The position numbers were made by a program, and so were the translations under genes. From Mucilaginibacter empetricola (GTDB lineage: Bacteria > Bacteroidota > Bacteroidia > Sphingobacteriales > Sphingobacteriaceae): a stretch of 64,000 nucleotides of DNA. The notes under the pieces were generated by a model. The model worked only from the letters and a program-made list of their open reading frames with translations, was not told the origin of the DNA and searched no databases. Shown here in pieces: positions 40,744 through 56,803 of the stretch (position 1 is its first letter; every line of letters begins with the position of its first letter). The stretch spans positions 7,075 to 71,074 of the forward strand of contig NZ_JANUBZ010000018.1 of NCBI RefSeq assembly GCF_024808665.1, given 5' to 3'.

Positions 40744-40776
40744 AAAGCCCTTATATTGAACGATATAAGGGCTTTT
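40744..40776 (+). terminator. Original tRNA-Pro terminator, now orphaned
   Basis: Stem AAAGCCCTTATAT / ATATAAGGGCTTT (40744-40756 / 40763-40775) with a T-run. Its position relative to the right repeat is where the terminator of the uninterrupted tRNA gene would be. Confidence 0.8.
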
Positions 40777-40797
40777 GGTTATTAGCATTCGTCGGAC

Positions 40798-40931
40798 TCG
40801 TTGGTCGGGATTTATAATCCAGGACCCTGTATTTATGGATTTGTAATCCGCGAAACGGATTTTTATTTTTAGCGATGGGGATTGCAAATCCCCGCGTATT
40901 TTAGTCCGGGATTATAAATCCGGACTAACGT
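40798..40931 (+). repeat. Family B hairpin repeat, full copy
   Basis: Four hairpins in order: a GGTCGGGATTTATAATCC-type stem, a GGATTTGTAATCC stem, GGGGATTGCAAATCCCC, and AGTCCGGGATTATAAATCC closed by GGACT. It is followed by AACG. Matches the ends of the RAYT transposon at 53463-54158 with the transposase removed. Confidence 0.8.
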
Positions 40932-41070
40932 GTTGAAATAACTAAAGGCCTTTTACTTACAATTATTTCATTTGATTAACCGCAAACAATAACGACGAAA
41001 TTTGCAATAATTTTACGATAATTGTTTAAAGCGATAACACACCTTTTGCCTAGCATTAAAACAAACCTAA

Positions 41071-42180
41071 ATGTCTTTAAAAAAAATTAATTCCATCCAG
41101 TTATTACGCGCCATAGCTGTTAGCCTTGTTATTTTTTTGCACATTAGTTTTGGAGGAATTGAAAAATTTTCACAGGTAAACCCCATAGCCTCTTTTTATC
41201 ATCTGAAAACATGGGGTGCTATTGGTGTCGACCTGTTTTTTTCGATAAGTGGTTTTATCATGACTATTGTTGTTCCCTCTTATACTCAACCCGGCGACTG
41301 GAAAAAGTTCTTCGTTAAAAGATTTATCCGGATACTTCCTCTGTATTATTTAATATCTTTTTTAACGGCAATGAATATAATTGTTATTCATCATGAGTCA
41401 ATACCAATTTTGAGTATAGCCAAAACGGTTTTGTTTTTCCCCTTTTTTGATGTCAAAGCATTTGTTGATCCAATAGTGGGAGTAGGTTGGTCTTTATCAT
41501 ATGAAATATATTTTTACAGTTTAATTGGTATACTACTTATATTAAAAAAAGACATGTATAAACGCTTGTTGATCATTATTTTATTGCTTGTTGTGGCAGG
41601 TTTATATTTTAATAGTCAAAACCCGTTATTAAAATTTTTAACAAGCCCCATTTTATTAGAGTTTGCATTCGGAATAATTTGTGGTTTATTCTACCAAAAA
41701 TTAAACAAGATAAGCTACCCAGCTTTTAGAACGAAGACGACATCGATATTACTTGTATTTATTGGCATTGCATTGATGGGTATCACTGTATTTGTTGTTC
41801 CGGGGTTTGAGCTTCACTCAATGCGAGCCATTGAAAATGATAATACGCTGGCCTTTTACAGAGCAATTATATGGGGGCTGCCATCGGCCATTTTCATGTT
41901 GGGCGTAATACTTTACGAAAGATTTTTTCATCAACAAATTTCGAGATTTCTTGTATTGGCCGGCGATGCTTCTTATTCGTGCTATTTAATTCATGTTCAG
42001 GTATATGCAATATTTGCTTATATATTTAAATACACACATCTAAATGTTTGGATATACATAATTACAGTAATTCCGTTTTGTCATTTAGTCAGCATTATTT
42101 TTTACAAATTAGTCGAGAAAAAATTGGTTTTGTTGGTCGACAAATGGTTTCATCAACAAAAACCAGTCTTCATGGATTAA
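41071..42180 (+). CDS. Acyltransferase 3 family membrane protein
   Basis: 369 residues with about 10 hydrophobic helices. The N-terminal motif LLRAIAVSLVIFLHISFG carries the conserved His, followed by GVDLFFSISGFIM, PLYYLISF and a mid-protein GVGWSLSYEIYFYS block. This family transfers acyl groups to sugars or other surface polymers. The gene is alone; a second, more distant member is at 54237. Substrate unknown. Confidence 0.92.
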   Translation: MSLKKINSIQLLRAIAVSLVIFLHISFGGIEKFSQVNPIASFYHLKTWGAIGVDLFFSISGFIMTIVVPSYTQPGDWKKFFVKRFIRILPLYYLISFLTAMNIIVIHHESIPILSIAKTVLFFPFFDVKAFVDPIVGVGWSLSYEIYFYSLIGILLILKKDMYKRLLIIILLLVVAGLYFNSQNPLLKFLTSPILLEFAFGIICGLFYQKLNKISYPAFRTKTTSILLVFIGIALMGITVFVVPGFELHSMRAIENDNTLAFYRAIIWGLPSAIFMLGVILYERFFHQQISRFLVLAGDASYSCYLIHVQVYAIFAYIFKYTHLNVWIYIITVIPFCHLVSIIFYKLVEKKLVLLVDKWFHQQKPVFMD

Positions 42181-42234
42181 ATATTTCTGTAAAACTCTTT
42201 GCGTCTTATATTACACTTTAATTTCCCCCGCTGG

Positions 42235-42285
42235 TCTAAGTTTATAAACTTAGATCTAAAATGTTTTAAGCTTCCAGCTTAACAT
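42235..42285. repeat. Palindrome and short repeat
   Basis: A perfect 20-bp palindrome at 42235-42254 (TCTAAGTTTATAAACTTAGA) followed by a 30-bp unit at 42256-42285. The unit is repeated with few changes at 46386-46415 (shared core CTAAAATGT, TTAAGCTT, AGCTTAACAT). Confidence 0.7.
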
Positions 42286-42334
42286 TGTTACCTGGCCAGA
42301 CTATTGCGTTCCAACTTTCACCACACAGAAATTG

Positions 42335-42342
42335 TATCTTTG
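42335..42342 (+). promoter_or_regulatory. -7 box of the Crp/Fnr gene
   Basis: TATCTTTG, matching TAnnTTTG, 12 bp before the ATG at 42355. It argues for that start and against the upstream one at 42304. Confidence 0.6.
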
Positions 42343-42354
42343 TACCAATCACCA

Positions 42355-42927
42355 ATGTTGGAACAGCTTATAAACTTTTTGAAACAAGCACGCCCTATTC
42401 CGCCGGGTGATGTCGGTAAAATTGGCCATTACCTGCAAACCCGCAGCGTTAAGGAAGGTGAGGTATTGATTGAAATGGACCAAAGCGCGCGTGAACTTTA
42501 CTTTATTACCAGCGGCATCCTCAAAATTATTGGCGTAAACAGTAAAAGCGATACGGTTATCCGTTTTTTTATTCCGGAAAACCATCTATGCACTATCCTT
42601 TACAGCTTTCAGAATAATGTGCCGTCTACAGAATCGGTTATTGCAGCGTGTGATACAGAAGTGATCGTGATAACACACAAAATACTGGACAATATCAATA
42701 ACGAGGTTCCTTATTTTAAAGAGATGCTGAATGGTATTATGCAGCAGGCTTTATTGAAAAAGATTGCCATTATGTCGACCTATTTGGGTGAGGATGCTAC
42801 TACCCGCTATCATCACTTTTTGCAGCAGCAACCTCATGTAGCCAACCGGGTATCGCTGCATGATATTGCTTCTTATTTGGAAATAACCCCGCAATCGCTG
42901 AGCCGCATCCGCAGAGGGGTGAAATAG
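42355..42927 (+). CDS. Crp/Fnr family transcriptional regulator
   Basis: About 190 residues from ATG 42355. It has an N-terminal cyclic-nucleotide-like barrel (VKEGEVLIEMDQSARELYFI, then SGILKIIG) and a C-terminal helix-turn-helix (VSLHDIASYLEITPQSLSRI). The frame opens at 42304, but a promoter -7 box at 42335-42342 lies within that extension. The SDR gene follows 104 bp downstream, and an inverted repeat before it may be its target, repeating the layout at 17694-19321. Confidence 0.92.
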   Translation: MLEQLINFLKQARPIPPGDVGKIGHYLQTRSVKEGEVLIEMDQSARELYFITSGILKIIGVNSKSDTVIRFFIPENHLCTILYSFQNNVPSTESVIAACDTEVIVITHKILDNINNEVPYFKEMLNGIMQQALLKKIAIMSTYLGEDATTRYHHFLQQQPHVANRVSLHDIASYLEITPQSLSRIRRGVK

Positions 42928-42968
42928 TTTGGTCCTATAATTCATAATTTTTTGCATCTCGTCGCTTT

Positions 42969-42982
42969 TTACCATTTGGTAA
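42969..42982. promoter_or_regulatory. Inverted repeat before the SDR gene
   Basis: TTACC-ATTT-GGTAA between the Crp/Fnr gene and the SDR gene. A candidate binding site for the adjacent regulator. Confidence 0.45.
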
Positions 42983-43031
42983 GTGTTTACTCATCGGTAT
43001 AACGGAACTTTATATTATAAAATTTAATATC

Positions 43032-43763
43032 ATGAGCGATACAAATTCATTAGCAAACAAAACGGTAGTAGTATTGGGCGGTAGCGCAGGGATAGGATTG
43101 GCCACAGCAAAAGCGGCAGCAGCTGAAGGTGCAAAGGTGATCATCGTATCCAGCAATCAGCAACGCATCAACAAGGCGCTGGAGCAATTGCCGCAAGGTT
43201 CGGCAGGTTATGCGGTTGACCTGAGCAAAGAGGAGAATATCAAAAACTTTTTCGAAAAAATTGGTCAGCTGGATCACCTGGTTTATACCGCCGGTGAAAA
43301 CCTGCAGTTGGGCGTTGTTGAAACGCTGGATCTGGAGAAATCACGCGACTTTTTTAACCTGCGTTACTGGAGTGCGCTGGCAGCGGTAAAACATGCTTCG
43401 GGCAGAATCAATGCGGGCGGTTCTATTACGTTGACCAGTGGTTCGGGCGGTATCAGGCCGCAAAAAGGTTGGGTAATTGCAGCCAGCATTTGTACGATGA
43501 TGGAAGGGCTGACCAGAGCATTGGCCGTTGAATTGGCGCCCACCCGTGTAAATTGTGTAATGCCCGGCTTTGTAAAAACCGAATTATGGGGCAACGTTCC
43601 CGAAGCTGATCGTGAGGCCATGTTCAAAAGCGCTGCAGATATGCTGCTGGTAAAACATGTTGCCGAACCGGAAGAAATTGCGCAAGGTTATTTATATCTC
43701 ATCAAACAATCATACAGCACCGGTCAAAGTATTGTGATTGATGGCGGCGGAGTGCTTTCGTAA
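43032..43763 (+). CDS. SDR family oxidoreductase lacking the usual catalytic Tyr-Lys
   Basis: 243 residues with an intact Rossmann start (VVVLGGSAGIGLATAKAAA) and a catalytic-Ser-like strand (GSITLTSGSGG). At the place of YxxxK the sequence is GWVIAASICTMMEGLTRALA, so Tyr is replaced by Trp and Lys by Ala. The C-terminal part (VNCVMPGFVKTELWG) is normal. It may be an atypical dehydrogenase or a non-catalytic NAD(P)-binding protein. It is downstream of a Crp/Fnr gene. Confidence 0.85.
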   Translation: MSDTNSLANKTVVVLGGSAGIGLATAKAAAAEGAKVIIVSSNQQRINKALEQLPQGSAGYAVDLSKEENIKNFFEKIGQLDHLVYTAGENLQLGVVETLDLEKSRDFFNLRYWSALAAVKHASGRINAGGSITLTSGSGGIRPQKGWVIAASICTMMEGLTRALAVELAPTRVNCVMPGFVKTELWGNVPEADREAMFKSAADMLLVKHVAEPEEIAQGYLYLIKQSYSTGQSIVIDGGGVLS

Positions 43764-43872
43764 GCCTCACCCTGCCCTCTCCAACCGCGTGCCGCCTTAG
43801 CTTTAGCGGTGGCGCAAGGAGAGGGTTCTAAAAAGACGAGCGAAGTTTAAGTCCTCTCCTTTGGTGAGGCTT
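43762..43872. repeat. Inverted-repeat sequence between convergent genes
   Basis: Arms AAGCCTCACC (43762-43771) and GGTGAGGCTT (43863-43872), with internal CCCTCTCC / GGAGAGGG pairs. It may terminate transcription from both sides. The internal CCCTCTCC units resemble a Sphingobacteriaceae intergenic repeat. Confidence 0.55.
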
Positions 43873-43879
43873 TACCCTC

Positions 43880-45205
43880 TTAAAACGCTTCCCTTATATT
43901 CAGATAAATACCCGAGAAACCATAGCCCATACCATAATCGACAGTGATATTGGTGCGATCGAGTTTATTCATTTTGATGCGCAGTCCTACGCCGCCGCCG
44001 GGAGCTACCGTATTAAAAAGATTTTGATTGGTAAGAGGCAGCGGATTACTGGCTGTGGTGCAATTGATAAAAGTAACGCCACCCAGCAATCCGTTACTGG
44101 TAAGTCTGAAACGGAACTCCGATTCGCCATAGAGCATATTATCGCCTCTGAACCGGCCCTGGATATATCCTCTGCCAGACCGGTTATAAGTATCCCAGGT
44201 AATAGAGGGTAATTCTAAATAAGGCACATGTCCGGTTAGTACATTGGTGCCCCAAAACCAAAAAGCTATTAAATTTTGTGGGATATCCTTATTTACATTG
44301 ATATAAGTACGATATTCATAATAAAGGATGCTGCTGTTTTGAGAGCTGCCCAAAAAAGTGGGATTTACCCGGTAACTCACATTTAAATAATAGCCGCTGT
44401 ATGGATTGATGGGATTGTCCCTGCTATCGTGCATAATTTCGACTGATAAACCATCAGTATTATATTGCGTAGTATTGAAACCGTATGCTTTTGAATAAAT
44501 GTAGTGCGAAGTAAGATGCACGGGCGAATCGAGTTTTAAGGATTGGTCCTGTATTTTGTAATTATCATCAATCATAACAGCCATCCCGGCATACCAGTGG
44601 TGTTCGTTTATTTTCCTCAAAAAAGTTTCATACAGGCGTATGTAGTTATATTTTAATGGCTGCTCCAAACTGCCATGAGTGGTTGCACTTAAGCCATTTA
44701 AATTAAAAGTGTAGGGTTGATCATTGAGACCGTATATACCCAAGCCATAGGTGGGTTGGGTAAAAAACAGTAAACGGTTATCGCCAGAGATGTACCATTT
44801 ATTTTGTGCGGTGTAAAGATCATATCTTAAACTTAATATAACCTGATCTTTTGTGGTTACAGAGGCATTGAGCAAGGCTGTGGTAAGCTTGGTAATTGTT
44901 GGGTCGGCCATATATTTGGTAACACTCACCGCTGCCCCCAACACCACGCCGTTTGACGGACTATAACCCAAAACCGGTAAAATAGAAAGATTGCTTTTTG
45001 TAGTACGGACAGTATCAACCGGTTTGGCCGGTTTTTTTGTCCACTTGCGCAGCACATCAAATATATCTATGCTGGGAGCTGAGTGTGTGGTGTCTTGATT
45101 TTGCTTTGCCGTCGTTGCATAGCCATTTCCCACAATCATCACCATAATGATTATAAACGGTATAACAGATCTCCATACATTAAAAAAAAGCTGAATGGAA
45201 TTCAT
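43880..45205 (-). CDS. BamA/TamA-like outer membrane barrel protein
   Basis: 441 residues with an N-terminal hydrophobic signal segment (SVIPFIIIMVMIVGNGYAT). The rest is beta-rich, with GYSPSNGVVLGAAVSVTKYM near residue 80, HDSRDNPINPYSGYYLNVSY and a C-terminal aromatic strand GFSGIYLNIREAF. GRGYIQGRFRGDNMLYGESE matches the RGF-like region of D15/surface-antigen barrels. No POTRA domains are present, so it is a short form, probably of unknown surface role. Confidence 0.82.
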   Translation of the reverse strand: MNSIQLFFNVWRSVIPFIIIMVMIVGNGYATTAKQNQDTTHSAPSIDIFDVLRKWTKKPAKPVDTVRTTKSNLSILPVLGYSPSNGVVLGAAVSVTKYMADPTITKLTTALLNASVTTKDQVILSLRYDLYTAQNKWYISGDNRLLFFTQPTYGLGIYGLNDQPYTFNLNGLSATTHGSLEQPLKYNYIRLYETFLRKINEHHWYAGMAVMIDDNYKIQDQSLKLDSPVHLTSHYIYSKAYGFNTTQYNTDGLSVEIMHDSRDNPINPYSGYYLNVSYRVNPTFLGSSQNSSILYYEYRTYINVNKDIPQNLIAFWFWGTNVLTGHVPYLELPSITWDTYNRSGRGYIQGRFRGDNMLYGESEFRFRLTSNGLLGGVTFINCTTASNPLPLTNQNLFNTVAPGGGVGLRIKMNKLDRTNITVDYGMGYGFSGIYLNIREAF

Positions 45206-45350
45206 GCCTTGTTGTGTTGCTGCGGGCGCTATTAAAAGATGTTTAAAGTTAAGGTGGTTTCCGTTTCAAAAGCTGGGTTGTAAAAGCAAGACGGGTTCCA
45301 AATTGCAAAATGCATCAACAAAGGCGAGGCTTGGCGAAAAAGAGTTTATG

Positions 45351-45402
45351 AGGATTACAGATCCCCAATATTTTAGTCCGGGGTTATAAATCCGGACTAA
45401 CG
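45351..45402 (+). repeat. Family B hairpin repeat, right half
   Basis: GATTACAGATCCCC followed by TTTTAGTCCGGGGTTATAAATCC and GGACTAACG. Only the last two hairpins of the full element. Confidence 0.7.
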
Positions 45403-45449
45403 TTATTATATATTTGTTTCTGAACATTAAAGATTTCAAAAATTAATCT

Positions 45450-46178
45450 ATGTCTGAAGAAAAAATAATCAAGCATACTGAGGCAGCTGTCCGTCTCATC
45501 GGCAATAAAGAAAAACCCTGGCGCAAAAAGATAGGCGAGCTTGCCGAGGAGATAGCCATTATCATATTTGCGGTTAGTATTACGCTGGCGTTGCATAACT
45601 GGAACGATTGGCGCAATGAGCGCAAAATGGAAAAGGATTTTTTAACCGGTATTAAGGGCGATTTGAAAAATGACGCTATAAACCTAGATTACGCAGTTAT
45701 TGATTTAAACAATACAGCGCATTATTATGATACCGTATGGCAGCAAATTGCCCATAAAAAGTTAGATGTTGCGTATATTGATACCAATAGCGGCCAGCTT
45801 TTAAATACCGTTTACTTCAGATTTGACAACGGGCGGTTTGAAAGCTTTAAATCAAGTGGTTACCTGCGGCTGATTGAGAACCAGGTACTTTTAAAAAACC
45901 TGACCAATTTGTACACTTCTGATATGCCTTTCCAGGTTACGGCAGACGATTATATTTATGGAAGCCGGCGGGCGGATTACAACACCTACATCGGCGTAAA
46001 AGCGCCGATGGATGCTGAAAAGGTTGTTCATGTTTCACAGATTTTGAACGATCCTGCCGTGCGATACCAACTTGTGTACTATGGAAGTTATATACACGAA
46101 CGCATCAGGCAAAAAAAGGAACTCGCTAAACATATCAGAAGCGTTATTACCGAAATTGACAAAGAGCTGGATAAATAG
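45450..46178 (+). CDS. DUF6090-like membrane protein
   Basis: 242 residues. One transmembrane helix at about 31-49 (EIAIIIFAVSITLALHNWND) is followed by a charged, helical domain. Its start KYMEKDF-type block (RNERKMEKDFLTGIKGDLKN) is typical of DUF6090. The function is unknown. The gene lies between two copies of repeat B. Confidence 0.78.
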   Translation: MSEEKIIKHTEAAVRLIGNKEKPWRKKIGELAEEIAIIIFAVSITLALHNWNDWRNERKMEKDFLTGIKGDLKNDAINLDYAVIDLNNTAHYYDTVWQQIAHKKLDVAYIDTNSGQLLNTVYFRFDNGRFESFKSSGYLRLIENQVLLKNLTNLYTSDMPFQVTADDYIYGSRRADYNTYIGVKAPMDAEKVVHVSQILNDPAVRYQLVYYGSYIHERIRQKKELAKHIRSVITEIDKELDK

Positions 46179-46210
46179 GCAGGCTGCATCTTTCTATCCT
46201 TCGTTTGTTT

Positions 46211-46342
46211 CGTTGGTCGGGATTTATAATCCACGACCAAATCATTGTGGATTTGTAATCCACGAAACGGAATTTTATATTTAGCAATGGGGATTGCAAA
46301 TCCCCAATATTTTAGTCCGGGATTATAAATCCGGACTAACGT
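46211..46342 (+). repeat. Family B hairpin repeat, full copy
   Basis: 132 bp with all four hairpins, starting TTGGTCGGGATTTATAATCC and ending GGATTATAAATCC-GGACTAACG. The clearest free copy for comparison with the RAYT element. Confidence 0.88.
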
Positions 46343-46417
46343 AACACACACTCAACTATTACTGGTCGAGGTTTTCAACATCGTCCTAAAATGTATTAAG
46401 CTTGTAGCTTAACATAT

Positions 46418-46451
46418 AACAAAGCCCGACGCTCTATGGCCGGGCTTTGTT
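46418..46451 (-). terminator. Terminator after the NTF2-like gene
   Basis: Stem AACAAAGCCCG (46418-46428) / CGGGCTTTGTT (46441-46451), ending 2 bp from the gene's stop codon. Confidence 0.8.
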
Positions 46452-46452
46452 A

Positions 46453-46929
46453 TTATTGCGCCTTATGATTACTGTTAAATAAATCTCTGAATATTTTCCA
46501 GCCATCTTTTGTGGCCCGCCATAATTTGAGGTATTTGCCATCATCGAGCAGCTTCCCATTAGGATCAAAAACCTGCCAGGTACCTTCTTCGGTAATATAT
46601 CCTTTGCCATCTCCATAAACTTCGCCGGTTTGAAACTTAACGCCTTTTACTTGCCCTGCTGCAAAGGTGTCTCCAAAATCTTTCTCTAAAGCTTTTTTTC
46701 CGCAGATGGGCGGCATGTTTGGCGAAAGCAGACAGGCATCATCAGTATAAAGATTAACGATGGCGGTATCTTTTTGGGCAAATAAATCAAAATAAAGAAT
46801 GTTGGTTTTTTCGATTGCTTTTTTTACCGCTGTTAAGTTGGATGAGTTAGTGCTTTGAGCCGTGCTGTTGTTATAAACCAAAAAGAGGGCGATGCCTAAG
46901 ATTGCGGTTATCAGTTTGTTTTGTTTCAT
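46453..46929 (-). CDS. NTF2-like (SnoaL/DUF4440 type) exported protein
   Basis: 158 residues with a signal peptide (LITAILGIALFLVYNNSTAQ). The NTF2-like fold is suggested by the helix KAIEKTNILYFDLFAQKDTA and VNLYTDDACLLSPNMPPICG, followed by the beta strands EGTWQVFDPNGKLLDDGKYL and KLWRATKDGWKIFRDLFNS. The latter is the hallmark DUF4440/SgcJ ending. Ligand or substrate unknown. A terminator lies directly downstream. Confidence 0.85.
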   Translation of the reverse strand: MKQNKLITAILGIALFLVYNNSTAQSTNSSNLTAVKKAIEKTNILYFDLFAQKDTAIVNLYTDDACLLSPNMPPICGKKALEKDFGDTFAAGQVKGVKFQTGEVYGDGKGYITEEGTWQVFDPNGKLLDDGKYLKLWRATKDGWKIFRDLFNSNHKAQ

Positions 46930-47005
46930 AAATTTTTTAATTGAATAAATAATGACAACAAAACTACCCGATGTAAAACCGGCAAAATTGTAAAAAACGG
47001 AACCG

Positions 47006-47815
47006 CTAATTTTTTAGGGCGACAAAAAGATCGGTTGAACTTTCGGGAGCGAACCGGGATGGTGCTACACCGGTGAAGAATTTAAAGTCCTTTATAAAAT
47101 GCGACTGATCGAAGTACCCGCATTGATGCGCGATAGTTGTGAGCGACGAGCTTTTGCCCGAAACCAGGTGAATGCTTTTTTGAAACCGCATTATTTTACT
47201 AAACAGGTTTGGGCTTAGCCCCGAATAGGTTAAGAATATTTTCTGTAGATACCGGGATGAAACACCGTACCTGGCAGCTATGGAATTGATATTTTCAAAA
47301 AAATCATCCCTGCCCAAATCGTTCATGATGCTGGTTACCAGTTTTAACCGGGTAAATTTATTTAGCGAGAGCCGGCGCAGTAAAAACGCATCTACCAAAT
47401 CAACCCTTTGCTCCGGCGTTTTAGCTTCCTGCAATTTTGAATGTAGTATGGTGGTTGCTTTACCGCCAATGTCTTTAAAATCAATTACCTGGTCATTAAA
47501 TTCTGCTACCCGTTCATTAAAAAAGCAAGCTGCGGTATGGGCAAAAAACCGGATGCCAAACATGGAATGCTTACCGAAAGAGGTAAAAGTAAAAGGATGA
47601 ATGGTTTGTCCCCATAATTGGATATAGGGCTGGCGTATTAAATCACCATTTTTTAATTAATGCGGTCCATCGGCCCCTACATTAAACATCATTTCAATAC
47701 AGCCCGATGCAAAAACAGTGTCCTCAGCGAAAACGGCGGTGTCTGTTTCGCACGTAAAATAACATTGTACGTGGTTTTTTAAAAATCCGGCCGGGGCAAA
47801 TTCTTTATAATGCAT
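47006..47815 (-). pseudogene. AraC family regulator split by one stop codon
   Basis: From ATG 47815 the frame encodes 52 residues (HYKEFAPAGFLKNHVQCYFT to NVGADGPH), meets TAA at 47657-47659, and then continues in the same frame through KNGDLIRQPYIQLWGQTIHP to a full C-terminal AraC domain (IAARYGVSSRYLQKIFLTYS and TIAHQCGYFDQSHFIKDFKF). The reconstructed 269-residue length is normal for AraC regulators with a DUF6597 N-terminus. The part downstream of the stop (from ATG 47563) could still make a DNA-binding domain alone. Confidence 0.85.
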
Positions 47816-47871
47816 ACATCGCCAATAACAACACCTAAGTTAGTATAAAGCATAGATATTTTTATTTGGTT

Positions 47872-48027
47872 GATCGGGGATTACAAATCCCCGATATTTT
47901 AGTCCGGGATTATAAATCCGGACTAACGTGGGCGTGGGATATCTGAAGAGATGTCTGGTTTTTTGTTTAAAGTGGGTGTAATTATGGATTTGTATTCTTC
48001 GAAACGGAATTTTATATTTAGTGAACG
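47872..48027 (+). repeat. Family B hairpin repeat, rearranged copy
   Basis: The right half (47872-47930: GGGGATTACAAATCCCC, AGTCCGGGATTATAAATCC, GGACTAACG) is followed after 50 bp by a degraded left-half element (ATGGATTTGTATTCTTCGAA, 47982-48003, and ACGGAATTTTATATTTAG). Arrangement is reversed relative to a full copy. Confidence 0.6.
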
Positions 48028-48079
48028 GATTTGCTTTAACCAGAACTTCAAAAATTAGTCGCCTAAACAAACTACAGTT

Positions 48080-48526: not shown

Positions 48527-48668
48527 TCTACCATACATCGGGTTTCCGTTGCAATATTCAACCAGGCGATTCGATAATAAAGCTGAAAAATGCGTTTACG
48601 GTAACACTTGTAAAAAAAAATGGAAAGAAACAGGTTTATTGCGGCGATTGATAAATAGTTCACTTATG

Positions 48669-48741
48669 AATGGGGATTACAAATCCCCGGTATTTTAGTC
48701 CGGGATTATAAATCCGGACTAACGTTGACCCGGACTAACGT
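48669..48741 (+). repeat. Family B hairpin repeat, right half with extra end
   Basis: GGGGATTACAAATCCCC and AGTCCGGGATTATAAATCC-GGACTAACG, followed by a second CCGGACTAACG. It sits 100 bp upstream of the DeoR gene. Confidence 0.7.
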
Positions 48742-48773
48742 TGATGTCTGAACAAGTATGGATTAATTATCTT

Positions 48774-48812
48774 ATTTGCAATATTATATATTTGCGTTAT
48801 ATTATTGCAAAT
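48774..48812. promoter_or_regulatory. Inverted repeat over the DeoR start (candidate operator)
   Basis: ATTTGCAATA (48774-48783) and its complement TATTGCAAAT (48803-48812) flank a -7 box TATATTTG (48787-48794) and overlap the start codon at 48811. TTGCAATA-type units recur before the MFS gene (50958-50995). Probable autoregulation by the DeoR protein. Confidence 0.65.
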
Positions 48813-49560: not shown

Positions 49561-49570
49561 AATACTGAAT

Positions 49571-49598
49571 AAAAAAGCGGACTCAACGTCCGCCTTTT
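49571..49598. terminator. Bidirectional terminator
   Basis: GCGGAC / GTCCGC stem (49577-49582 / 49588-49593) between an A-run and a T-run, between the convergent DeoR and cupredoxin genes. Confidence 0.8.
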
Positions 49599-49632
49599 AC
49601 CAACACATTTAACACTAACAAACCAAAATCTC

Positions 49633-50160
49633 TTATTCAACAACTATTTTACCTTGCATAGTCCCCCAATGGCCAGGGTAGCTGCAAATAAAATCATACA
49701 CACCCGCTTGCGTAATAATGAATTCTACCTCATCAGATTTTCCGGCAATAACCGGTTTGGTGTGAGCAATAATTGAAGCGGCAAATGCGGAAGGGATATA
49801 TTGATCTTTTTCGGACATCCGCGCCTCATCGGCAAAGTTTGAAATGTCGGTACCTTTATTCAGGATAACAACATTATGCGACATCAGCACGCCTGCCTGG
49901 GAGCCAATATTTGTTAAGCGAAGTATAGTTTTTTTACCGCTTTTGATCTTAAATAAATCTTTATCAAAATGCATATCATCATTAGCGTGCAAGCTGATTG
50001 TATCAGTGAAGGGCACTTTTTCAATTCCTGGGATGGACGTGGTGTCAATTTCGGTGGTTTTTGCAGTGGCCGAGGTGTCTTGTTGGCCCTGATTGTTGCC
50101 GGCTTGCCCGCAAGCAGTCAAAAAAAGAGAAATTGCCAATAGCTGTAGAATTCTTTTCAT
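49633..50160 (-). CDS. Azurin-like cupredoxin lipoprotein
   Basis: 175 residues. The N-terminus has a lipobox, LFLTACGQ, so the protein is a periplasmic or outer-membrane lipoprotein. The copper ligands of azurin are present: the His in VLMSHNVVIL, and Cys, His and Met in FICSYPGHWGTMQGKIVVE. It is expected to carry a type 1 copper centre for electron transfer. It follows the DUF1080 gene by 18 bp on the same strand, so the two are likely co-transcribed. Confidence 0.93.
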   Translation of the reverse strand: MKRILQLLAISLFLTACGQAGNNQGQQDTSATAKTTEIDTTSIPGIEKVPFTDTISLHANDDMHFDKDLFKIKSGKKTILRLTNIGSQAGVLMSHNVVILNKGTDISNFADEARMSEKDQYIPSAFAASIIAHTKPVIAGKSDEVEFIITQAGVYDFICSYPGHWGTMQGKIVVE

Positions 50161-50178
50161 GCTTTAATACCAATAATT

Positions 50179-50913
50179 TTATAACTCCTTAATCTTAATA
50201 TCCCTGAATGCGACTCCGCTTGTCCAGTCCTGCAATGCAATATGTCCCTTCACCGCAGCGGCATACGATGGATACTTACTCATGGAGCTGGCCGCTACTG
50301 CTTTTTTCCATTCGTCACTTTTAAAATCGGCGGTAACGGTCTGTACGCCATTTAGCCAAAAGGTGACTTTACCATCCTTTTGCACAATACGCGAGTGGTT
50401 CCACTCACCTGAGTTTGGCATAGTTTTACTTGTATCCGGAATTACGCCGAAAATTGAAGCTGCTTTATGAGATAGGTTTTTAAGATAATCGGGCTCCACG
50501 TTTCTATCATCAAGCAGCTGGTATTCGGGGCCTGTGGCGAAAGTAGCTCCAAACTCCGGGCGCTCTTGCACGTTGATAAATAAACCACTGTTACCTGCTT
50601 TTGAAATCTTCCAGTCAAAGCGCAGGTCGTAATTTTCATACTCTTTGTCTGTTACTAAATCGCCGTGTTTAACATTTTTTGTATGCGGATTGCAAATGAG
50701 TTTACCGCTATCTGCCGACCATGCTGAAAGCATATTGCCTTTGTTAAAAACATGCCATCCGTTCATCGTATCTCCGTCAAAAAGCAAAGCCCAGCCTTCG
50801 CTTTTTTCCTGGTCCGAAAGTACATTGTGCTGCTCCTGGTTTGAACAGGCGCTAAAAAGCACAACACATACAAGTGTAATACATAAGTTAATTCGGGTTG
50901 ATTTAGCTATCAT
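50179..50913 (-). CDS. DUF1080 (3-keto-disaccharide hydrolase-type) lipoprotein
   Basis: 244 residues with a lipobox (CVVLFSACSNQEQ). The DUF1080 fold is seen in GWALLFDGDTMNGWHVFNKG, ENYDLRFDWKISKAGNSGLF, EYQLLDD and GEWNHSRIVQKDGKVTFWLN. The family includes hydrolases of 3-keto sugars. It is divergent from the MFS gene at 51000 and in front of the cupredoxin gene. Together with the DeoR regulator, this suggests a sugar-oxidation or uptake unit; that is inference. Confidence 0.9.
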   Translation of the reverse strand: MIAKSTRINLCITLVCVVLFSACSNQEQHNVLSDQEKSEGWALLFDGDTMNGWHVFNKGNMLSAWSADSGKLICNPHTKNVKHGDLVTDKEYENYDLRFDWKISKAGNSGLFINVQERPEFGATFATGPEYQLLDDRNVEPDYLKNLSHKAASIFGVIPDTSKTMPNSGEWNHSRIVQKDGKVTFWLNGVQTVTADFKSDEWKKAVAASSMSKYPSYAAAVKGHIALQDWTSGVAFRDIKIKEL

Positions 50914-50957
50914 GCTATTTAGGGTTAATTGGAAGATGAAAATAATTTAGATAAATA

Positions 50958-50995
50958 TATTGCAACATTGTGCATATTTGCAAATAATTGCAATA
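50958..50995. promoter_or_regulatory. Cluster of TTGCAA motifs between DUF1080 and MFS genes
   Basis: TATTGCAA at 50958-50965, the palindrome ATTTGCAAAT at 50976-50985 and TTGCAATA at 50988-50995. The units match the inverted repeat over the DeoR start, so DeoR may control this divergent promoter region. Confidence 0.6.
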
Positions 50996-50999
50996 AAAT

Positions 51000-52181
51000 A
51001 TGGTTGTTTCTGCTGATATTAATTTAGAAAGATCTAAAAAGGCCACTCAGGCAATTTTTTTGGTTTGCGGCCTGGGGATTTCAAGCTGGGCCATTATGGT
51101 GCCTTACGCCAAATACAGACTGGGGCTTAATGATGAGCGTTTAGGGCTGCTCCTGCTGCTATTGGGTGCAGGTGCAATAACCATGATGCCTGTAACAGGT
51201 GTGTTAATTCATAAATTCGGAAGCAGGATAGTAATTTTAGTTTCATCATTTGTTGTGGTTTTAACATTGCCATTGTTGCTGATTATGAATTCAGTAGCAG
51301 GCATGGGGGTTATCCTGTTCCTGTTTGGTTCTGCAATAGGCACGGTTGATGTCGCCATGAACGCCCATGGTGTGCAAGTGCAAAATTTATACGGCAAACC
51401 CATTATGTCATCGCTGCATGGTCTTTTTAGTGTTGGAGGGCTTTTGGGTTCATTGGGCCTTGGGTTTTTGATAAAAACCGGCTTATCGCCACTTGTGGCC
51501 GCAGTAAGTATATCAGCATTATTGTTTTTAATTATCATTACCCAATACCATTTTCTCATTAAAGGGGCTTATGAAAAAGAAGTTATTAAAAATTTCAGCA
51601 TAGTAAATAACAGTCCATCAGGCAACAAATTTTCCTGGCTCAAAATGAGCATTATCTATTTGGGGCTTTTATGCTTCGCTGTGTTTTTATCGGAAGGAGC
51701 GATGTTAGATTGGAGCGCATTGTTTTTAAAGGAAGACCGGGGTGTTAACGTTGCACTAGCAGGAATTGGCTATGCAGCTTTTTCGATAGCTATGGCCACG
51801 ATGCGCTTAGTGGGCGACAAAATTGTTAGCCGGTTTAACAGCAAAAATGTGGTTGTATATGGCAGCCTTGTAGCCGCATCCGGTTTGTTCCTCGCAGTGT
51901 TTACGCCATGGATAATCACGTCATTACTTGGCTTTATTTTACTCGGTATTGGAGCAGCTAACATTGTGCCCGTATTTTTTAGCGAGGGCGGGAGATTGAA
52001 AGATGTTCCGTCATCAGTTGCTGTCCCGGCAATTTCAACGTTTGGGTATGCCGGCCAGTTGGTTGGGCCTGCCACGTTAGGTTTCATCGCTCATCACACT
52101 TCACTGCCAACTGCATTTGGGTTTATCGCTTTTCTTTTGCTATTGGTTGGCCTGTCATTCAGCTTAAAAAAATCAAGTTAA
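51000..52181 (+). CDS. MFS transporter (sugar-type)
   Basis: 393 residues with about 12 hydrophobic helices. KKATQAIFLVCGLGISSWAI and MVPYAKYRLGLNDERLGLLL at the N-terminus, then MNAHGVQVQNLYGKPIMSSL, a conserved block found in fucose/sugar-type MFS proteins (MFS_1, FucP-like or YbjJ-like). Probably imports a sugar or related compound under DeoR control. Divergent from the DUF1080 lipoprotein gene. Confidence 0.9.
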   Translation: MVVSADINLERSKKATQAIFLVCGLGISSWAIMVPYAKYRLGLNDERLGLLLLLLGAGAITMMPVTGVLIHKFGSRIVILVSSFVVVLTLPLLLIMNSVAGMGVILFLFGSAIGTVDVAMNAHGVQVQNLYGKPIMSSLHGLFSVGGLLGSLGLGFLIKTGLSPLVAAVSISALLFLIIITQYHFLIKGAYEKEVIKNFSIVNNSPSGNKFSWLKMSIIYLGLLCFAVFLSEGAMLDWSALFLKEDRGVNVALAGIGYAAFSIAMATMRLVGDKIVSRFNSKNVVVYGSLVAASGLFLAVFTPWIITSLLGFILLGIGAANIVPVFFSEGGRLKDVPSSVAVPAISTFGYAGQLVGPATLGFIAHHTSLPTAFGFIAFLLLLVGLSFSLKKSS

Positions 52182-52382
52182 CAGGTCTTCATAGTTAATG
52201 ATAACTCCTGCTGCCACCAGCGGGGCGTACGCGACAGATTTTATCTTTTTTTTCCTTCAATTTAAGATCAACAAATTTTGTAATATTTTAATTATTAGTA
52301 TTTTAGCTCTGCCTTTGGCGAAAACCTTATACAACTTAACCTAAACCAGTTTTTAGAAAATATAGCTTAAACTAAACTTATC

Positions 52383-53399
52383 ATGGAACAAAATCACAAC
52401 ACAGACGACATCCGTCAGCAACCGTCGTTCATCCCGGCAGGATGGATAGGTGGTTTTTCTGAACATCCGCCTGGACAAACCTATCCAAACGAAGCACTTC
52501 TTTCATCATTGCCTTTTGAAGGAAATTTGAGTCACCTTACCAGCATTACCCGTATGTTACGGGCCCGTTGGCCCGAATTTAGCTGGGAGACAACGCCGGG
52601 CGACCCTAAAACAAGAATGTTCCAAATGTTTGCACCAGATATATCCAGACTTGGATATGATGATACCGGAAAAGTTTGGGCCATTATATGCCCACAGCAA
52701 GGTGTTTATTTTGAAAGGCTGGGCGCTACCTTAAATATTGAAGTTACCGTTACCGGAAACCGGGGATGGATTAACGAAAATGCAGATACAAACGAAAAAT
52801 TTGCCGCAGATATAACCATTAAACCCACCATTTGGTTTAGTCCGGATAGTACCGCAGGTTGGTTTTGGCAACAGCTGGTAAAATTGGACAACCAGTGGGC
52901 CAACAAGCTGCCGCTCAGCAAAGTTAAAGGTATCAGGATAAATGCAACGGATGAGGACGGCCTTGATTATCTTCAGGTGCGGATGGGCGAACGCCCGAAT
53001 TATCCTTTTCCTGACCGGGCCAAACACTGGCGCGACTATGCATGGACCGTAGCGAATTTAGCTGTGAAGATAGGAAAGATAGATAGCGTTGATTCAAAAG
53101 TTGATGAGTTTAACAGCTGGGTGATGGAGCTTTTCAACATAGGATCGGGCAATTTGCTACAGGAAAACAATATTTTGACCTGGAACCTTTGGGCCGGTTC
53201 GCCCGAGTTGGTAAATCAGGAGGAGTGGGCTGCTCACGCCGAATACTGGCGATACTCTATTGATGTAAACCACCGCCCGCCCGAAGGCGAAGGAAGCGGC
53301 ATAGCCGACTTTAACGGCAATCCATTTAGCGTTAGTGACTTTTATTGGGGAATAAAAGTCAGCGAATTTATTGCATGGATAGCTAAGGAACTGTTGTAG
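52383..53399 (+). CDS. Unknown protein, 338 residues
   Basis: A soluble protein with no signal peptide, rich in Trp and acidic residues. It starts with a Pro/Gly-rich part (FIPAGWIGGFSEHPPGQTYP), then SHLTSITRMLRARWPEFSWE and a middle PDSTAGWFWQQLVKLDNQWA. No known domain or enzyme motif is recognised. Stands alone between the MFS gene and the RAYT element. Confidence 0.7.
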   Translation: MEQNHNTDDIRQQPSFIPAGWIGGFSEHPPGQTYPNEALLSSLPFEGNLSHLTSITRMLRARWPEFSWETTPGDPKTRMFQMFAPDISRLGYDDTGKVWAIICPQQGVYFERLGATLNIEVTVTGNRGWINENADTNEKFAADITIKPTIWFSPDSTAGWFWQQLVKLDNQWANKLPLSKVKGIRINATDEDGLDYLQVRMGERPNYPFPDRAKHWRDYAWTVANLAVKIGKIDSVDSKVDEFNSWVMELFNIGSGNLLQENNILTWNLWAGSPELVNQEEWAAHAEYWRYSIDVNHRPPEGEGSGIADFNGNPFSVSDFYWGIKVSEFIAWIAKELL

Positions 53400-53462
53400 G
53401 GGAATAATATAATCATTCTTACTGCTCGCAGTGCGGCAAGCGAAGCTTGTTGCACTGTTCAA

Positions 53463-54158
53463 TACGTTGGTTGGGATTTATAATCCCGACCCAATATTTG
53501 TGGATTTGTAATCCACGAAACGTAAATTTTAATTATGGGTTTTAAATATACCATTACTACAAACGAAAAGTATTTTTTAACGATAACCGTTGTTGATTGG
53601 ATTGATGTTTTTACAAGGAAGGAATTAAGCGAAGTAATAGTGAACTCCTTAAGATATTGCCAGCAGGTAAAGGGTCTTCAAATTTTTGCGTGGTGTTTAA
53701 TGCCCAGCCATTTGCATTTGGTGGTATCTGTTGATGAAAAGACAGACCATACACTTTCTGACGTAATGCGTGATTTTAAAAAGTATACATCTAAACAGAT
53801 TGTAAAAACGATAAATGAAATTGCTGAAAGCAGGAGGGAATGGCTTTTAATCCATTTTGAATATGCAGGAAAATACAATCCTAAAATAAAAGATTACAAA
53901 TTTTGGCAGGATGGATTACATCCAATTGAATTAACCAGCGGGAAGTTTATTGATCAGAAAATTAACTATATCCACCAAAACCCAGTAGAAGCCGGTATTG
54001 TTTACAGCGCCGAAGACTATGTTTTAAGTTCTGCTGCTGAATATGCCGGGGAGCATACCGGGTTATTGGATGTGATTGTGTTGGATTAATTTGCTTTGTG
54101 CTATGGGATTACAAATCCCCACTATTTTAGTCCGGGATTATAAATCCGGACTAACGTA
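53463..54158 (+). mobile_element. RAYT transposon with family B ends
   Basis: Left end 53463-53530 (TTGGTTGGGATTTATAATCC and a GTGGATTTGTAATCCAC hairpin, then GAAACG), the transposase gene, and right end 54104-54158 (ATGGGATTACAAATCCCC, AGTCCGGGATTATAAATCC, GGACTAACG). Putting the two ends together gives the free full repeats at 40798, 46211 and 56660, so this is the likely parent. Confidence 0.85.
53535..54089 (+). CDS. REP-associated tyrosine transposase (RAYT, Y1/HUH type)
   Basis: 184 residues. The HUH motif is MPSHLHLVVSV (about residues 56-66), and the catalytic Tyr is probably in KINYIHQNPVEAGIV (about 148-162), the signature ending of RAYTs. The N-terminus TTNEKYFLTITVVDWIDVFT is typical of this family. 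Unlike insertion sequences it is single-copy here and bracketed by hairpin repeats, as known for enzymes that act on REP elements in other bacteria. Confidence 0.93.
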   Translation: MGFKYTITTNEKYFLTITVVDWIDVFTRKELSEVIVNSLRYCQQVKGLQIFAWCLMPSHLHLVVSVDEKTDHTLSDVMRDFKKYTSKQIVKTINEIAESRREWLLIHFEYAGKYNPKIKDYKFWQDGLHPIELTSGKFIDQKINYIHQNPVEAGIVYSAEDYVLSSAAEYAGEHTGLLDVIVLD

Positions 54159-54188
54159 GGAGGACTTGAGCTTCACTCTTTTTAGAAC

Positions 54189-54223
54189 TTGTTGGTCGGG
54201 ATTTATAATCCTCGACCAACAAA
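54189..54223 (+). repeat. Family B left-end hairpin
   Basis: GTTGGTCGGGATTTATAATCC closed by CGACCAAC, a lone first hairpin of the family immediately after the RAYT element. Confidence 0.65.
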
Positions 54224-54236
54224 GATCTTAAAGTGT

Positions 54237-55367
54237 CTAACCCACCTTTTTCACTAGGAAACGTTTTCTAAGCCACTCGCGCACAGGCTCATCATAAAAC
54301 CGCAGGCTTACCCAAGCTATGGCTACGGCTATAATTGCCAGACCAAGGCCGGCTAAAAGTCCCTGGGCCATGGGTATTTTATTGTTGCTCACCCAGGCAA
54401 TATGCAGGTACATGAGCGGATAATGTGTGATGTAGAGCGGGTAAGATATGGCACCCAAAAACTTGCAAACCTTAACAGATGTTTTGCTCACTAAAGTGCC
54501 CCCGGCACCAATAGATACAATAAGCGGGAATATAACGATGATGACAAAAGCTTCATATATACCGTTCATCCACAAATGATCTGGCCCACCAATGCGGGGA
54601 ACTGCTAAAAAAACAATAATAAGGAAGCTGCAAACAGCGAATGCGTTTTTAATATGGATCAGTTTGCCCACGCGCATCAGCAACACGCCCGCGAAAAAGG
54701 GATAAAGCAAACGGGTAAGACCAATATTAACCTGTGTTTTATCAATAGACCAGCCGCCGATTACATCACCCTGTGGTCCCCATACCAAAAAGTGGATAAG
54801 CAAACATGCCGATAATATGACAAATATGGTAAGCAATGTTTTAGAGAACCGGCGAATGAGTACCGCATAAAGGATATTGGCAATGTACTCGTAAAAAAGA
54901 GACCAGGCGGCGCCGTTGAGCGGGTGTGTTTCCTGCCAGCCGCGAATATCCATCGACGGCAGCAGTGGCAGCATGGTAAAGCCAACCAGCATAACCAATA
55001 GCATTTTCCAAACAGGTGTCGCAGCAATGAGCGGGAACGCAGCGCCGGTTTGGAAATAAAAAAGCAATGCGCCAATTAGCGTACCTGCAATTACCATGGG
55101 CTGCAAGCGGATAAGCCGGCGTTTGTAAAAATCCCACTGGGTCATTTGGTCCCAACGATCATCATAGGCATAAGCAACCACAAAACCCGACAATAAAAAG
55201 AAAAAATCGACCGCTAAATAGCCGTGGTTGATGATCTGGTGAAAACGATCGCCGGAGTAAGTTTCAAATACGTGAAAAATTACCACCAAAATAGAGGCTA
55301 CGCCACGCAATCCGTCCAGGATTTCATAATGGCTTTTTGATTTAAGATAGGTTGGAGCTTGGTTCAT
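54237..55367 (-). CDS. Acyltransferase 3 family membrane protein
   Basis: 376 residues with about 10 helices. YEILDGLRGVASILVVIFHV carries the conserved Arg and His, followed by AVDFFFLLSGFVVAYAYDDR and RRLIRLQPMVIAG. The catalytic His of the family is in VVIFHVFET. It could O-acylate a surface sugar. The gene is monocistronic and transcribed toward the RAYT element. Confidence 0.92.
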   Translation of the reverse strand: MNQAPTYLKSKSHYEILDGLRGVASILVVIFHVFETYSGDRFHQIINHGYLAVDFFFLLSGFVVAYAYDDRWDQMTQWDFYKRRLIRLQPMVIAGTLIGALLFYFQTGAAFPLIAATPVWKMLLVMLVGFTMLPLLPSMDIRGWQETHPLNGAAWSLFYEYIANILYAVLIRRFSKTLLTIFVILSACLLIHFLVWGPQGDVIGGWSIDKTQVNIGLTRLLYPFFAGVLLMRVGKLIHIKNAFAVCSFLIIVFLAVPRIGGPDHLWMNGIYEAFVIIVIFPLIVSIGAGGTLVSKTSVKVCKFLGAISYPLYITHYPLMYLHIAWVSNNKIPMAQGLLAGLGLAIIAVAIAWVSLRFYDEPVREWLRKRFLVKKVG

Positions 55368-55456
55368 TGCCCAGGTAAAATAAGTAAAAAATAATTAGGT
55401 TATATTTTGGTTGATTTGTTTTGCTGAACAAATGCGGATACCAATATAGGTTTTAA

Positions 55457-56563
55457 TTATCTTTTATCAGTAACCTTAAATCGTAATACCCTGCGCCTGT
55501 CAAACATAATATCCATATAGGCCAGCGTGTAATCTCGCACTACATAGGCAAAATCATACGTATCGCCATGGCGGCTAAATGTGATATATTGTTGCCGTTT
55601 GATGGCGAATGTATCTGTAACCGTTCGCGGAAAGCAGCGCTTGCAATCAAATACCTCGTAAGTAATATCCGGGTTTGTGAAAGCATTTGTGTTAATCTGC
55701 AGCTGCCTGATTAATCCCGCATATTTTAATTTAAAATGTATTGTATCGCCTTTCTTAGCTTTGACTATTCCGGACGCAGGTGCCAGCACTTTTATGTCGC
55801 CGATATCGTCTGGACTATAATACGGATTTGCTGAAAATGTTTCTTTTGTGTACTTAGGTATCAGTACCCATTTAGGATCTAATGGAAAATGATTTTTAGC
55901 GAATTCCTCAGCCGGCGTTAACCAGTAATAATCATCGAAATGTTTTATAAAATGTGTTAATTTATCGTTGTCATCTTTCAGGCAAAAACCTGCCGCCCAG
56001 GTGGCATCCAGCAGATAATAGTTGCCATTTAACTGCACCACATTCCAGGCATGATCTAATTCGCCGGGTGTGCCAACTTCGTAATATTCGGTTCGGGTAT
56101 AGCCCGGTACAACTTCGGCATGCAAGCCTGCAATGTCACACATTCTTTTAAAAAGCATAGCATAGCCCTGGCAAACGGCCCGCCCTTTGTCAAGTGCTTT
56201 GTTGATATATTCGTTTTCCCATACTTTTTCTTTTATGATGCAGGCCAGCGTATCATCCGACGGACAATCGAATGTGACAGCGTCTTCGCCCTGATCCGCG
56301 TGACGGTTATAATATTTATAGTCGTAGGCGATATGGCCGGTTATCCATATAAAGATGGCCCTGGCTTTTGATACTTCATCTGTATAGTGATTCGTTAACT
56401 GTTTTGTAAGACCTACAATATTGCCATCGTATTTTACTTGCAGGGCCAGGCTGTCTGCGTGAGAAAGACGAATATCACGGATTCTTCCTTCCTGGGCATA
56501 AATAAAAGACTGGGACAGGGAGAAAAACACGACAGTTACAGCTAAAAACCTACGAACGAGCAT
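55457..56563 (-). CDS. Transglutaminase-like exported protein
   Basis: 368 residues with a signal peptide (VTVVFFSLSQSFIYAQ). The transglutaminase catalytic triad is seen as Cys in GRAVCQGYAMLFKRMCDIAG, His in ELDHAWNVVQLNG and Asp in YLLDATWAAG. The flanking ARAIFIWITGHIAYDYKYYN matches the usual N-terminal block of this fold. The C-terminal domain is beta-rich. It is more likely a peptidase-like or structural fold protein than a cross-linker; this is inference. Confidence 0.9.
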   Translation of the reverse strand: MLVRRFLAVTVVFFSLSQSFIYAQEGRIRDIRLSHADSLALQVKYDGNIVGLTKQLTNHYTDEVSKARAIFIWITGHIAYDYKYYNRHADQGEDAVTFDCPSDDTLACIIKEKVWENEYINKALDKGRAVCQGYAMLFKRMCDIAGLHAEVVPGYTRTEYYEVGTPGELDHAWNVVQLNGNYYLLDATWAAGFCLKDDNDKLTHFIKHFDDYYWLTPAEEFAKNHFPLDPKWVLIPKYTKETFSANPYYSPDDIGDIKVLAPASGIVKAKKGDTIHFKLKYAGLIRQLQINTNAFTNPDITYEVFDCKRCFPRTVTDTFAIKRQQYITFSRHGDTYDFAYVVRDYTLAYMDIMFDRRRVLRFKVTDKR

Positions 56564-56659
56564 AAGTATATAACATTGATGAAATAGTATAAATATACTT
56601 TATTAAAGCAAAACAAGAAACCGCACTATTTTAACTCCCCCCGCTGCCGCAAGAGTCCT

Positions 56660-56792
56660 TGTTGGTCGGGATTTATAATCCTCGACCCAATATTTGTGGA
56701 TTTGTAATCCACGAAATGAAAATTTATATTTAGCAAAGGGGATTGCAAATCCCCACTATTTTAGTCCTGGATTATAAATCCGGACTAACGTG
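56660..56792 (+). repeat. Family B hairpin repeat, full copy
   Basis: TTGGTCGGGATTTATAATCC, GTGGATTTGTAATCCAC, GGGGATTGCAAATCCCC and AGTCCTGGATTATAAATCC with one change in the last stem. The rightmost family B copy in the window. Confidence 0.85.
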
Positions 56793-56803
56793 TTTCATCA
56801 CTC

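Follow-up and report, generated by a model that had tools for sequence, protein, structure and literature searches.

A probable RAYT transposon and its internally deleted, REPIN-like copies in Mucilaginibacter empetricola

Short hairpin repeats scattered around a transposase gene raise the question of whether they descend from the transposon to which that gene belongs. We addressed this question for a 64,000-nucleotide stretch of the genome of the soil bacterium Mucilaginibacter empetricola (hereafter, the window; contig NZ_JANUBZ010000018.1, positions 7,075 to 71,074), in which a single gene for a RAYT (REP-associated tyrosine transposase, or TnpAREP; REP, repetitive extragenic palindrome) is accompanied by repeats that a reading of the sequence alone had proposed to be internally deleted copies of the RAYT transposon. 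The window lies on contig C18 of the genome (G000; 5.83 Mb, 39 contigs); other G-numbers denote genomes of the same genus, L-numbers sampled loci, and C-numbers contigs of G000. The explanation that we consider quite probable is a 692-bp transposon, in which a group-5-type RAYT gene lies between two inverted, double-hairpin arms, along with non-autonomous elements derived from that transposon.

The RAYT unit and the short elements of the window

The gene (53535..54089, + strand) encodes a predicted protein of 184 amino acids (aa) that, judging by family score, HuH and tyrosine motifs, and fold match, appears to be a RAYT/TnpAREP. It scores 104.6 bits against the NCBIfam family REP_Tyr_transpos (NF047646; cut-off 80), 36.3 bits against the Y1_Tnp profile, and 26.8 bits against the IS200 equivalog NF033573, which is below the cut-off of 55. 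A Y1 HuH transposase and hairpin ends are also characteristic of IS200/IS605 insertion sequences, from which the unit differs in that the protein falls below the IS200 cut-off and the ends are long, two-hairpin inverted arms. The motif HLH occupies residues 59-61, and Tyr145 lies within YIHQNP; H59 is invariant in 21 aligned proteins, and H61 and Tyr145 are each conserved in at least 90% of these. The solved structure closest to the predicted fold is the TnpAREP-REP complex 4er8 (E 2.8e-7), and structures of ISDra2 and IS608 are also among the matches. By comparison of motifs rather than profiles, WQ and YIHQNP fit group 5, or subclass 2.6, the first motif being SHLH, not NHLH, and the spacing between H59 and Tyr145 is 86, versus about 82 between HuH and Tyr for subclass 2.6. 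The genome contains seven Y1 transposase matches, three to high-scoring IS200-like proteins and four to RAYTs, and the RAYT of the window is present in a single copy. PADLOC yielded no match.

The gene is bracketed by a left arm (53465..53516, - strand) and a right arm (54104..54156, + strand), palindromic sequences that recur in the genome; both arms show two hairpins with GGATT-NNN-AATCC cores, as the sequence-only reading had noticed, and score 66.5 and 73 bits, respectively, with a covariance model whose training set included them. The two ends of the RAYT unit fold at z = -4.8 and -5.2. Three free elements, two from the window and one from C6, fold at z = -6.5, -7.0, and -11.8, with none of 200 shuffles as stable; the two window elements form separate hairpins, and the C6 element a single long hairpin, arm on arm. 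In an alignment of arms (32, from 8 genomes), 93.4% of the cells at the named pairs show standard pairing, and compensatory changes are found in 27 cells, compared to 9.3 ± 2.2 in shuffles (0 of 500 as high) and 0-5 for slid structures, counts that are inflated by kinship among the sequences. Two other measures on the same alignment are unexceptional: only 4 pairs are changed on both sides, a number at least equalled in 60 of 500 shuffles, and there are 8 further pair types, which 213 of 500 shuffles match or exceed. Among 15 left ends read by eye, the outer foot is (C/T)GTTAG or (C/T)GTTGG in all 15, and the GTAG/GTGG tag found at the hairpin foot of REPINs (REP doublets forming hairpins) was not seen.

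The covariance model finds arms at 12 places in the window (35.8-79.6 bits), 7 of which belonged to its training set. Three free full elements of 131-132 bp, located at 40799..40930, 46211..46341, and 56660..56790 (all on the + strand), consist of the left arm, a 25-nt leader-like spacer, and the right arm, in the same order and inversion as in the RAYT unit. Additionally, there are solo right arms at 45350..45402 (64.7 bits), 47876..47928 (78.5 bits), and 48672..48724 (78.1 bits), all on the + strand, and a solo left (outer) hairpin on the - strand at 54190..54232 (35.8 bits), 33 bases past the RAYT unit. The positions previously given for the elements and half-copies were correct to within a few bases, with those at 45351, 47872, 48669, and 54189 corresponding to the solo arms and hairpin. 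A further copy, which was absent from that list, is a remnant consisting of the inner left hairpin and the leader-like spacer (47977..48024, + strand), 85% identical to 40828-40875. The solo arms are probably partial or decayed copies.

The free elements and solo right arms are 84-96% identical to the arms of the RAYT unit. The left end of the unit matches the free elements starting at 56661, 46211, and 40799 with 93.8% identity over 65 bp, 89.4% over 66 bp, and 84.5% over 71 columns, respectively, the first of these elements being the nearest to it; the right end matches the same three with 94.4, 96.3, and 96.2% identity over 53-54 bp. Thus, the assertion that the two ends of the locus reproduce the free elements almost base for base is borne out for the sequence of the ends (84.5-96.3%) and not for length, the free elements being 8-9 bases longer than the quoted ends combined. 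Given that the copies were first found without the covariance model, with pairwise E-values between elements down to 1e-49, their similarity is not due to chance.

The spacers carry the evidence of internal deletion. In the relatives, the context of the RAYT start codon consists of a TATATTTA-like sequence, three bases, and ATGGG, and the inner left hairpin is separated from the ATG by 23 nt in the RAYTs of G063, G004, G068, and G071 (4 of 7 relatives). In the elements at 40799 and 46211, 23 nt are followed by ATGGG joined directly to GGGGATT of the right arm; the element at 56660 has, in the same register, AAAGGG in place of ATGGG. A start-context matrix that was built from the 7 relatives' RAYT starts alone and scanned over both strands of the window (about 128,000 positions) ranks the centres of the three elements 3rd, 2nd, and 7th, and the window's own RAYT start 6th; the elements are related to one another, so their ranks are not three independent events. 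Because both ends of the RAYT unit are matched and the leader is retained up to ATGGG, the window elements look like internally deleted units rather than merely paired hairpins, which supports the proposal that the short repeats are deleted copies of the RAYT transposon, subject to two corrections.

The RAYT of the window is not the unaltered parent of the elements, because its 5' leader, from the inner hairpin to the start codon (53517..53534, + strand; delimited by comparison of the register with relatives), is 18 nt long, against 23 nt in the elements; this RAYT is a sister of the parent or has changed since, the parent itself being an ancestral or sister copy. Furthermore, the elements on C6 and elsewhere carry different spacers, so the simple reading is that the elements have more than one origin and do not all stem from one deletion. 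The 12 full elements first listed, from four genomes, have spacers of 15-29 nt: besides the three window elements, 15-18 nt with no evident leader in six (three on C6 of G000, two in G004, and one in G063), 25 and 29 nt in two elements of G004, and 21 nt in one of G008.

Arms and units across the genus

Arms were surveyed in 100 genomes of the genus, including G000, at E <= 0.001 with the covariance model; 58 first-look candidates were scored per genome, and all arm counts are lower bounds. At least 31 of the 100 genomes contain arms. An orthologue of the RAYT is present in 8 genomes (G000, G004, G008, G037, G063, G068, G071, and G097, with at least 24, 13, 10, 5, 12, 4, 12, and 9 arms, respectively); the orthologues in the relatives are 70-78% identical to the query, and the next best protein 56%. 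Four or more arms were found in all 8 genomes with an orthologue compared to 6 of the 92 genomes without one (Fisher p 1.6e-8; for any arm, p 4e-5), a contrast that is somewhat inflated, with 1-2 arms per genome lying in the RAYT unit and all 8 genomes having contributed to the training of the model. Nevertheless, free units still number 5-15 in each of the 6 genomes examined for clustering. The count of at least 24 arms in the 5.8 Mb of G000 comes from scoring 150 of 3,355 first-look candidates.

A RAYT gene between related hairpins is the common state in the sample. Of 80 RAYT loci, 69 have a complete open reading frame (ORF) and both flanks, and 67 remained after removal of two double entries; in 60 of these 67, inverted similarity between the 150-base flanks exceeds that in all 100 shuffles. 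Direct similarity was also detected in 42 loci, as expected from palindromes and abutting extra arms, so that what the test demonstrates is mainly that related hairpins lie on either side of the gene and less how they are oriented; the sample was not drawn at random and contains copies from the same genome. Among the seven misses is another RAYT of G000, L034 (C6:240000-242500), which is flanked by direct repeats. For two of the three other RAYTs of G000, copies of the ends were sought, and they were found in both cases. On C8 of G000 (L121:3997-4622), another RAYT unit is accompanied by a second RAYT copy. The left part of this copy (81%) is interrupted by a complete free element belonging to that RAYT family, and its right 335 bp share 99.7% identity with the intact copy.

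Although thought to be immobile, RAYTs of this class apparently can still move as a unit, as judged from near-identical copies. The evidence is stronger in sister RAYT families than in the family of the window RAYT. Two units of a sister family in G088 are 99.2% identical over 718 bp, lie 2.1 Mb apart, and have unrelated flanks; pairs from sister families were also found in G094 (96.2% over 687 bp, 639 bp apart), G110 (91.5% over 910 bp), and G044 (86.1%). In the family of the window RAYT, units occupy seven unrelated sites in eight genomes, only G097 and G037 sharing a site. In 27 of the 28 comparisons among these eight loci, homologous blocks longer than 60 bp are confined, within about 15 bases, to the unit and adjacent arms, which by itself is weak evidence because synteny decay also produces dissimilar flanks. 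In the six other genomes that were read at the site shared by G097 and G037 (G132, G117, G052, G092, G040, and G019), the unit is absent. Compared to G052, which is 91% identical around the site, homology resumes within 1-2 bases past the CTAACG in a distal right arm, about 660 bp farther out than the right arm of the unit itself.

Several features of these sister and related loci were noted separately. In G097 (L048:2149-2811), about 600 bp beside the RAYT unit lie between two right arms in the same orientation, and some of this stretch matches places in G130 and G078 at 90% identity. One apparent local hop, a RAYT fragment located 1.6 kb away from the second copy in G088, was rejected because it is contained in a 99.9% identical tandem duplication that also takes in a 1.46-kb repeated element next to it; nor was a 194-bp fragment counted that lies 5.4 kb from the first copy, near the same repeated element. 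The 1.46-kb element (L117:5882-7345 and L115:9959-11422) directly adjoins the right hairpin of a RAYT unit and is found again with 24 bases of that hairpin attached; it may target RAYT hairpins.

The free units are clustered. In G000, no more than 20 kb separates the RAYT from 6 of the 15 free units (binomial p 4.9e-10; the hairpin at 54190-54232 counted with the RAYT), and 7 of the other 9 have a neighbour within 10 kb, compared to 0.27 expected. By the same random model, in which neither contig borders nor gene positions are taken into account, the units away from the RAYT cluster more than expected by chance in G004 (4 of 5), G063 (7 of 7), and G071 (6 of 10), and do not in G008 (0 of 6) and G097 (2 of 5). 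The copies in the window, on C6, and in L097 and L098 lie 0.7-10 kb apart, and the repeats end within a few bases of the element; the flanks are not shared, except for one match in L098, of 35 bp at 86%, which adjoins the second element; a 39-bp matching pair in L037 lies away from the elements. Because copies lie near each other without shared flanks, we infer that the spread was largely local. On the 3' side of the right hairpin, GT follows CTAAC in all seven right ends of the window, ATGC is found in both L097 copies and GAG in both L098 copies, and nothing is common to the three C6 copies; the shared 3' tails suggest that the right cut would fall a few bases outside the hairpin.

Elsewhere in the window, a gene for tRNA-Pro (23519-23593) has its 3' end within a 52-base stretch (23546-23597) that is exactly repeated 17.1 kb on, at 40679-40730; the ORF at 39250-40479 beside this repeat reads, by eye, like a tyrosine recombinase, and the whole is probably an integrated element of about 17 kb. 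Two pairs of direct repeats of 131-138 bp are located at 15250-15387 and 17486-17623, and at 63609-63739 and 63801-63931.

Proposed course of events and its alternatives

The anatomy of the unit, the homology of the copies, their leader-like spacer, the co-occurrence of arms and gene, the clustering, and the duplicate units are observed. The order of events that would have produced them could be as follows. Whole RAYT units would have moved during evolution, and the gene between the arms would occasionally have been lost, in this case, from the ATGGG at the RAYT start to the ATGGG/GGGGATT junction at the right arm. Such a deletion would leave an element of 120-132 bp with both arms. The RAYT may then mobilise this element in trans, as single-stranded DNA that would be cut at the arms, circularised or transferred, and re-inserted; both the action in trans and the single-strand chemistry are conjectural.

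A number of observations weigh against this scenario, in part also those on parentage. The free arms were compared with the arms of RAYT units from 8 genomes (7 left, 7 right). Among the 9 window arms, the nearest was the window's own RAYT arm in 7 cases (2 of the 3 left arms and 5 of the 6 right arms), and in the two others it came second, by a margin of 0.01; outside the window, the RAYT arm of the same genome was the nearest for 4 of 21 free arms (from C6, G004, G008, and G063), 2 of the 21, right arms of G063, having no RAYT arm of their own genome to match. The direct parent-offspring relation that the sequence-only reading had postulated is therefore well supported by similarity in the window, with the reservation of the shorter leader of the local RAYT, and does not emerge elsewhere. 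The 23-nt register is not universal, the distance being 22 nt in G008, 36 in G037, 45 in G097, and 18 in the window RAYT. In plain local alignment of the spacers with single leaders, 11 of 24 comparisons reach 5% or better against shuffles, and in the weakest, 395 of 500 shuffles align as well. The structural model of the RAYT is of moderate confidence (mean pLDDT, the predicted local distance difference test score, 76). Among the orthologues, that of G068 contains an in-frame stop, and the match in G071 spans residues 44-183 alone. Of the 92 genomes without an orthologue, 6 hold 4-8 arms (two of these, G077 and G092, are 81-86% complete) and 17 hold 1-3, again as lower bounds, which argues against a strict present need for the RAYT gene: either the arms outlive the gene, or other enzymes act.

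With respect to location and movement, nearness to the RAYT, with abutting arms excluded, is not significant in the other five genomes. The junction with G052 belongs to a composite with about 600 extra bp, and at the G097/G037 site, comparison yielded no exact pre-insertion site for the left end; in G132, the unit is absent, but 10-20 junction bases are too diverged to fix that end. The suggested check for empty sites in relatives thus yielded one site free of the unit in six genomes, with the left end not fixed, and comparison of G088 with G082 showed no clean pre-insertion site. Recent whole-unit duplicates are rare: among 128 RAYT loci sampled in 50 genomes, 40 genomes had two or more units (including G094, both units of which fall in one locus), and pairs more than 90% identical were found in 3 of these 40, none of them in the family of the window RAYT, and this is not an unbiased rate, the loci having been taken as the best by E-value and G110 and the first pairs picked for similar scores.

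Three alternatives have to be considered. According to the first, which is unlikely, the local copies are tandem or recombinational duplications made by the host, with the RAYT a bystander or an occasional cutter. Clustering of the copies is compatible with such a process, local amplification of REPINs is, according to the excerpted PMC8049555, probably the work of the host replication machinery, and the RAYT fragment in G088 did turn out to be part of a tandem duplication together with its neighbouring repeat. Evidence against this alternative comes from the repeats in the window, on C6, and in L097 and L098, which stop within a few bases of the element, their flanks being unshared apart from the L098 and L037 matches, and from the co-occurrence of arms and RAYT across genomes.

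Under the second alternative, which is quite unlikely, the arms owe their maintenance chiefly to a role between genes, as hairpins that serve as terminators, mRNA ends, or binding sites, and the RAYT has been domesticated as a regulator, in line with the general view of RAYTs as domesticated that is expressed in the excerpts of PMC8266576 and PMC8049555. An intergenic role would fit the location of the window copies, which, the RAYT gene in its own unit excepted, are not overlapped by any ORF longer than 103 aa in the program-made list, but not the agreement of these copies through the spacer as well as the stems, the lack of any Rfam family at the gathering score in 39000-58000, or the existence of near-identical duplicate units. 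The third alternative, in which a short inverted element came first and the RAYT gene was later captured between its arms, is very unlikely: the six of 12 full elements with spacers of 15-18 nt could be an older form, and arms do occur in 23 of the 92 genomes without an orthologue, but the window elements hold a RAYT-like leader and a start codon in the register of four other species, and the gene with arms is the common state among the sampled loci.

Relation to known systems

A RAYT transposon with internally deleted progeny is of a kind already known, namely, a TIRtron or REPtron (TIR, terminal inverted repeat) of the Bacteroidota subclass (PMC6006769, PMC3733652) with REPIN-like progeny (PMC3116915), as far as the accessible parts of these papers describe them. 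Subclass 2.6, which is Bertels group 5 (Corneloup et al. 2018, PMC6006769), shares with the window RAYT the occurrence in Bacteroidota, the WQ and YIH[QN]NP motifs, and flanking atypical structures that lack GT[AG]G and are copied elsewhere in the genome; two-hairpin arms, leader-keeping deletions, local clusters, and duplicated units are not described in the excerpt of that paper. The TIRtrons (Di Nocera et al. 2013, PMC3733652), as excerpted, are likewise RAYT-like genes between terminal inverted repeats, some of them doubly palindromic, and form families of modest size whose members stand singly, as dimers, or in groups; the same excerpt presents the related REPtrons as unable to self-propagate, in contrast to the whole-unit copies of up to 99% identity seen here in sister families.

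In the excerpt of Bertels and Rainey (2011, PMC3116915), the REPINs of Pseudomonas and E. coli, which accompany single-copy RAYTs, consist of two inverted palindromes with a short spacer and are thought to be mobilised in trans by the RAYT. The elements described here have the same two inverted REP-like arms and short spacer, and differ in having two hairpins per arm, a low rather than high copy number (at least 24 arms), no GTAG tag seen, and a clustered distribution, as well as in the persistence of a gene-containing unit with the same arrangement. That paper, in the part consulted, also put forward the idea that REPINs arose from an IS200-like element with REPs on its flanks.

What is new is the apparent whole-unit mobility and the leader-keeping deletion copies in this group of Bacteroidota; among the partly accessible literature matches listed, there is no earlier account for this group of duplicated whole units, leader-keeping deletion copies, or local clusters. 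The duplicates of sister units bear on the statement, in the excerpt of a 2021 paper, that there is no evidence of tnpAREP mobility (PMC8266576). Whether the Bacteroidota RAYTs of this group have escaped domestication and are still whole, self-moving transposons that spawn REPIN-like elements, mainly nearby, is, in our judgement, evenly balanced. If so, the proposed ancestor of REPINs would live on in such RAYTs, with deletions, at the start codon or elsewhere, having occurred repeatedly. A genus that contains complete, duplicated, and gene-deleted units, along with a site with and without the unit, makes claims on the origin of REPINs and on RAYT domestication directly testable.

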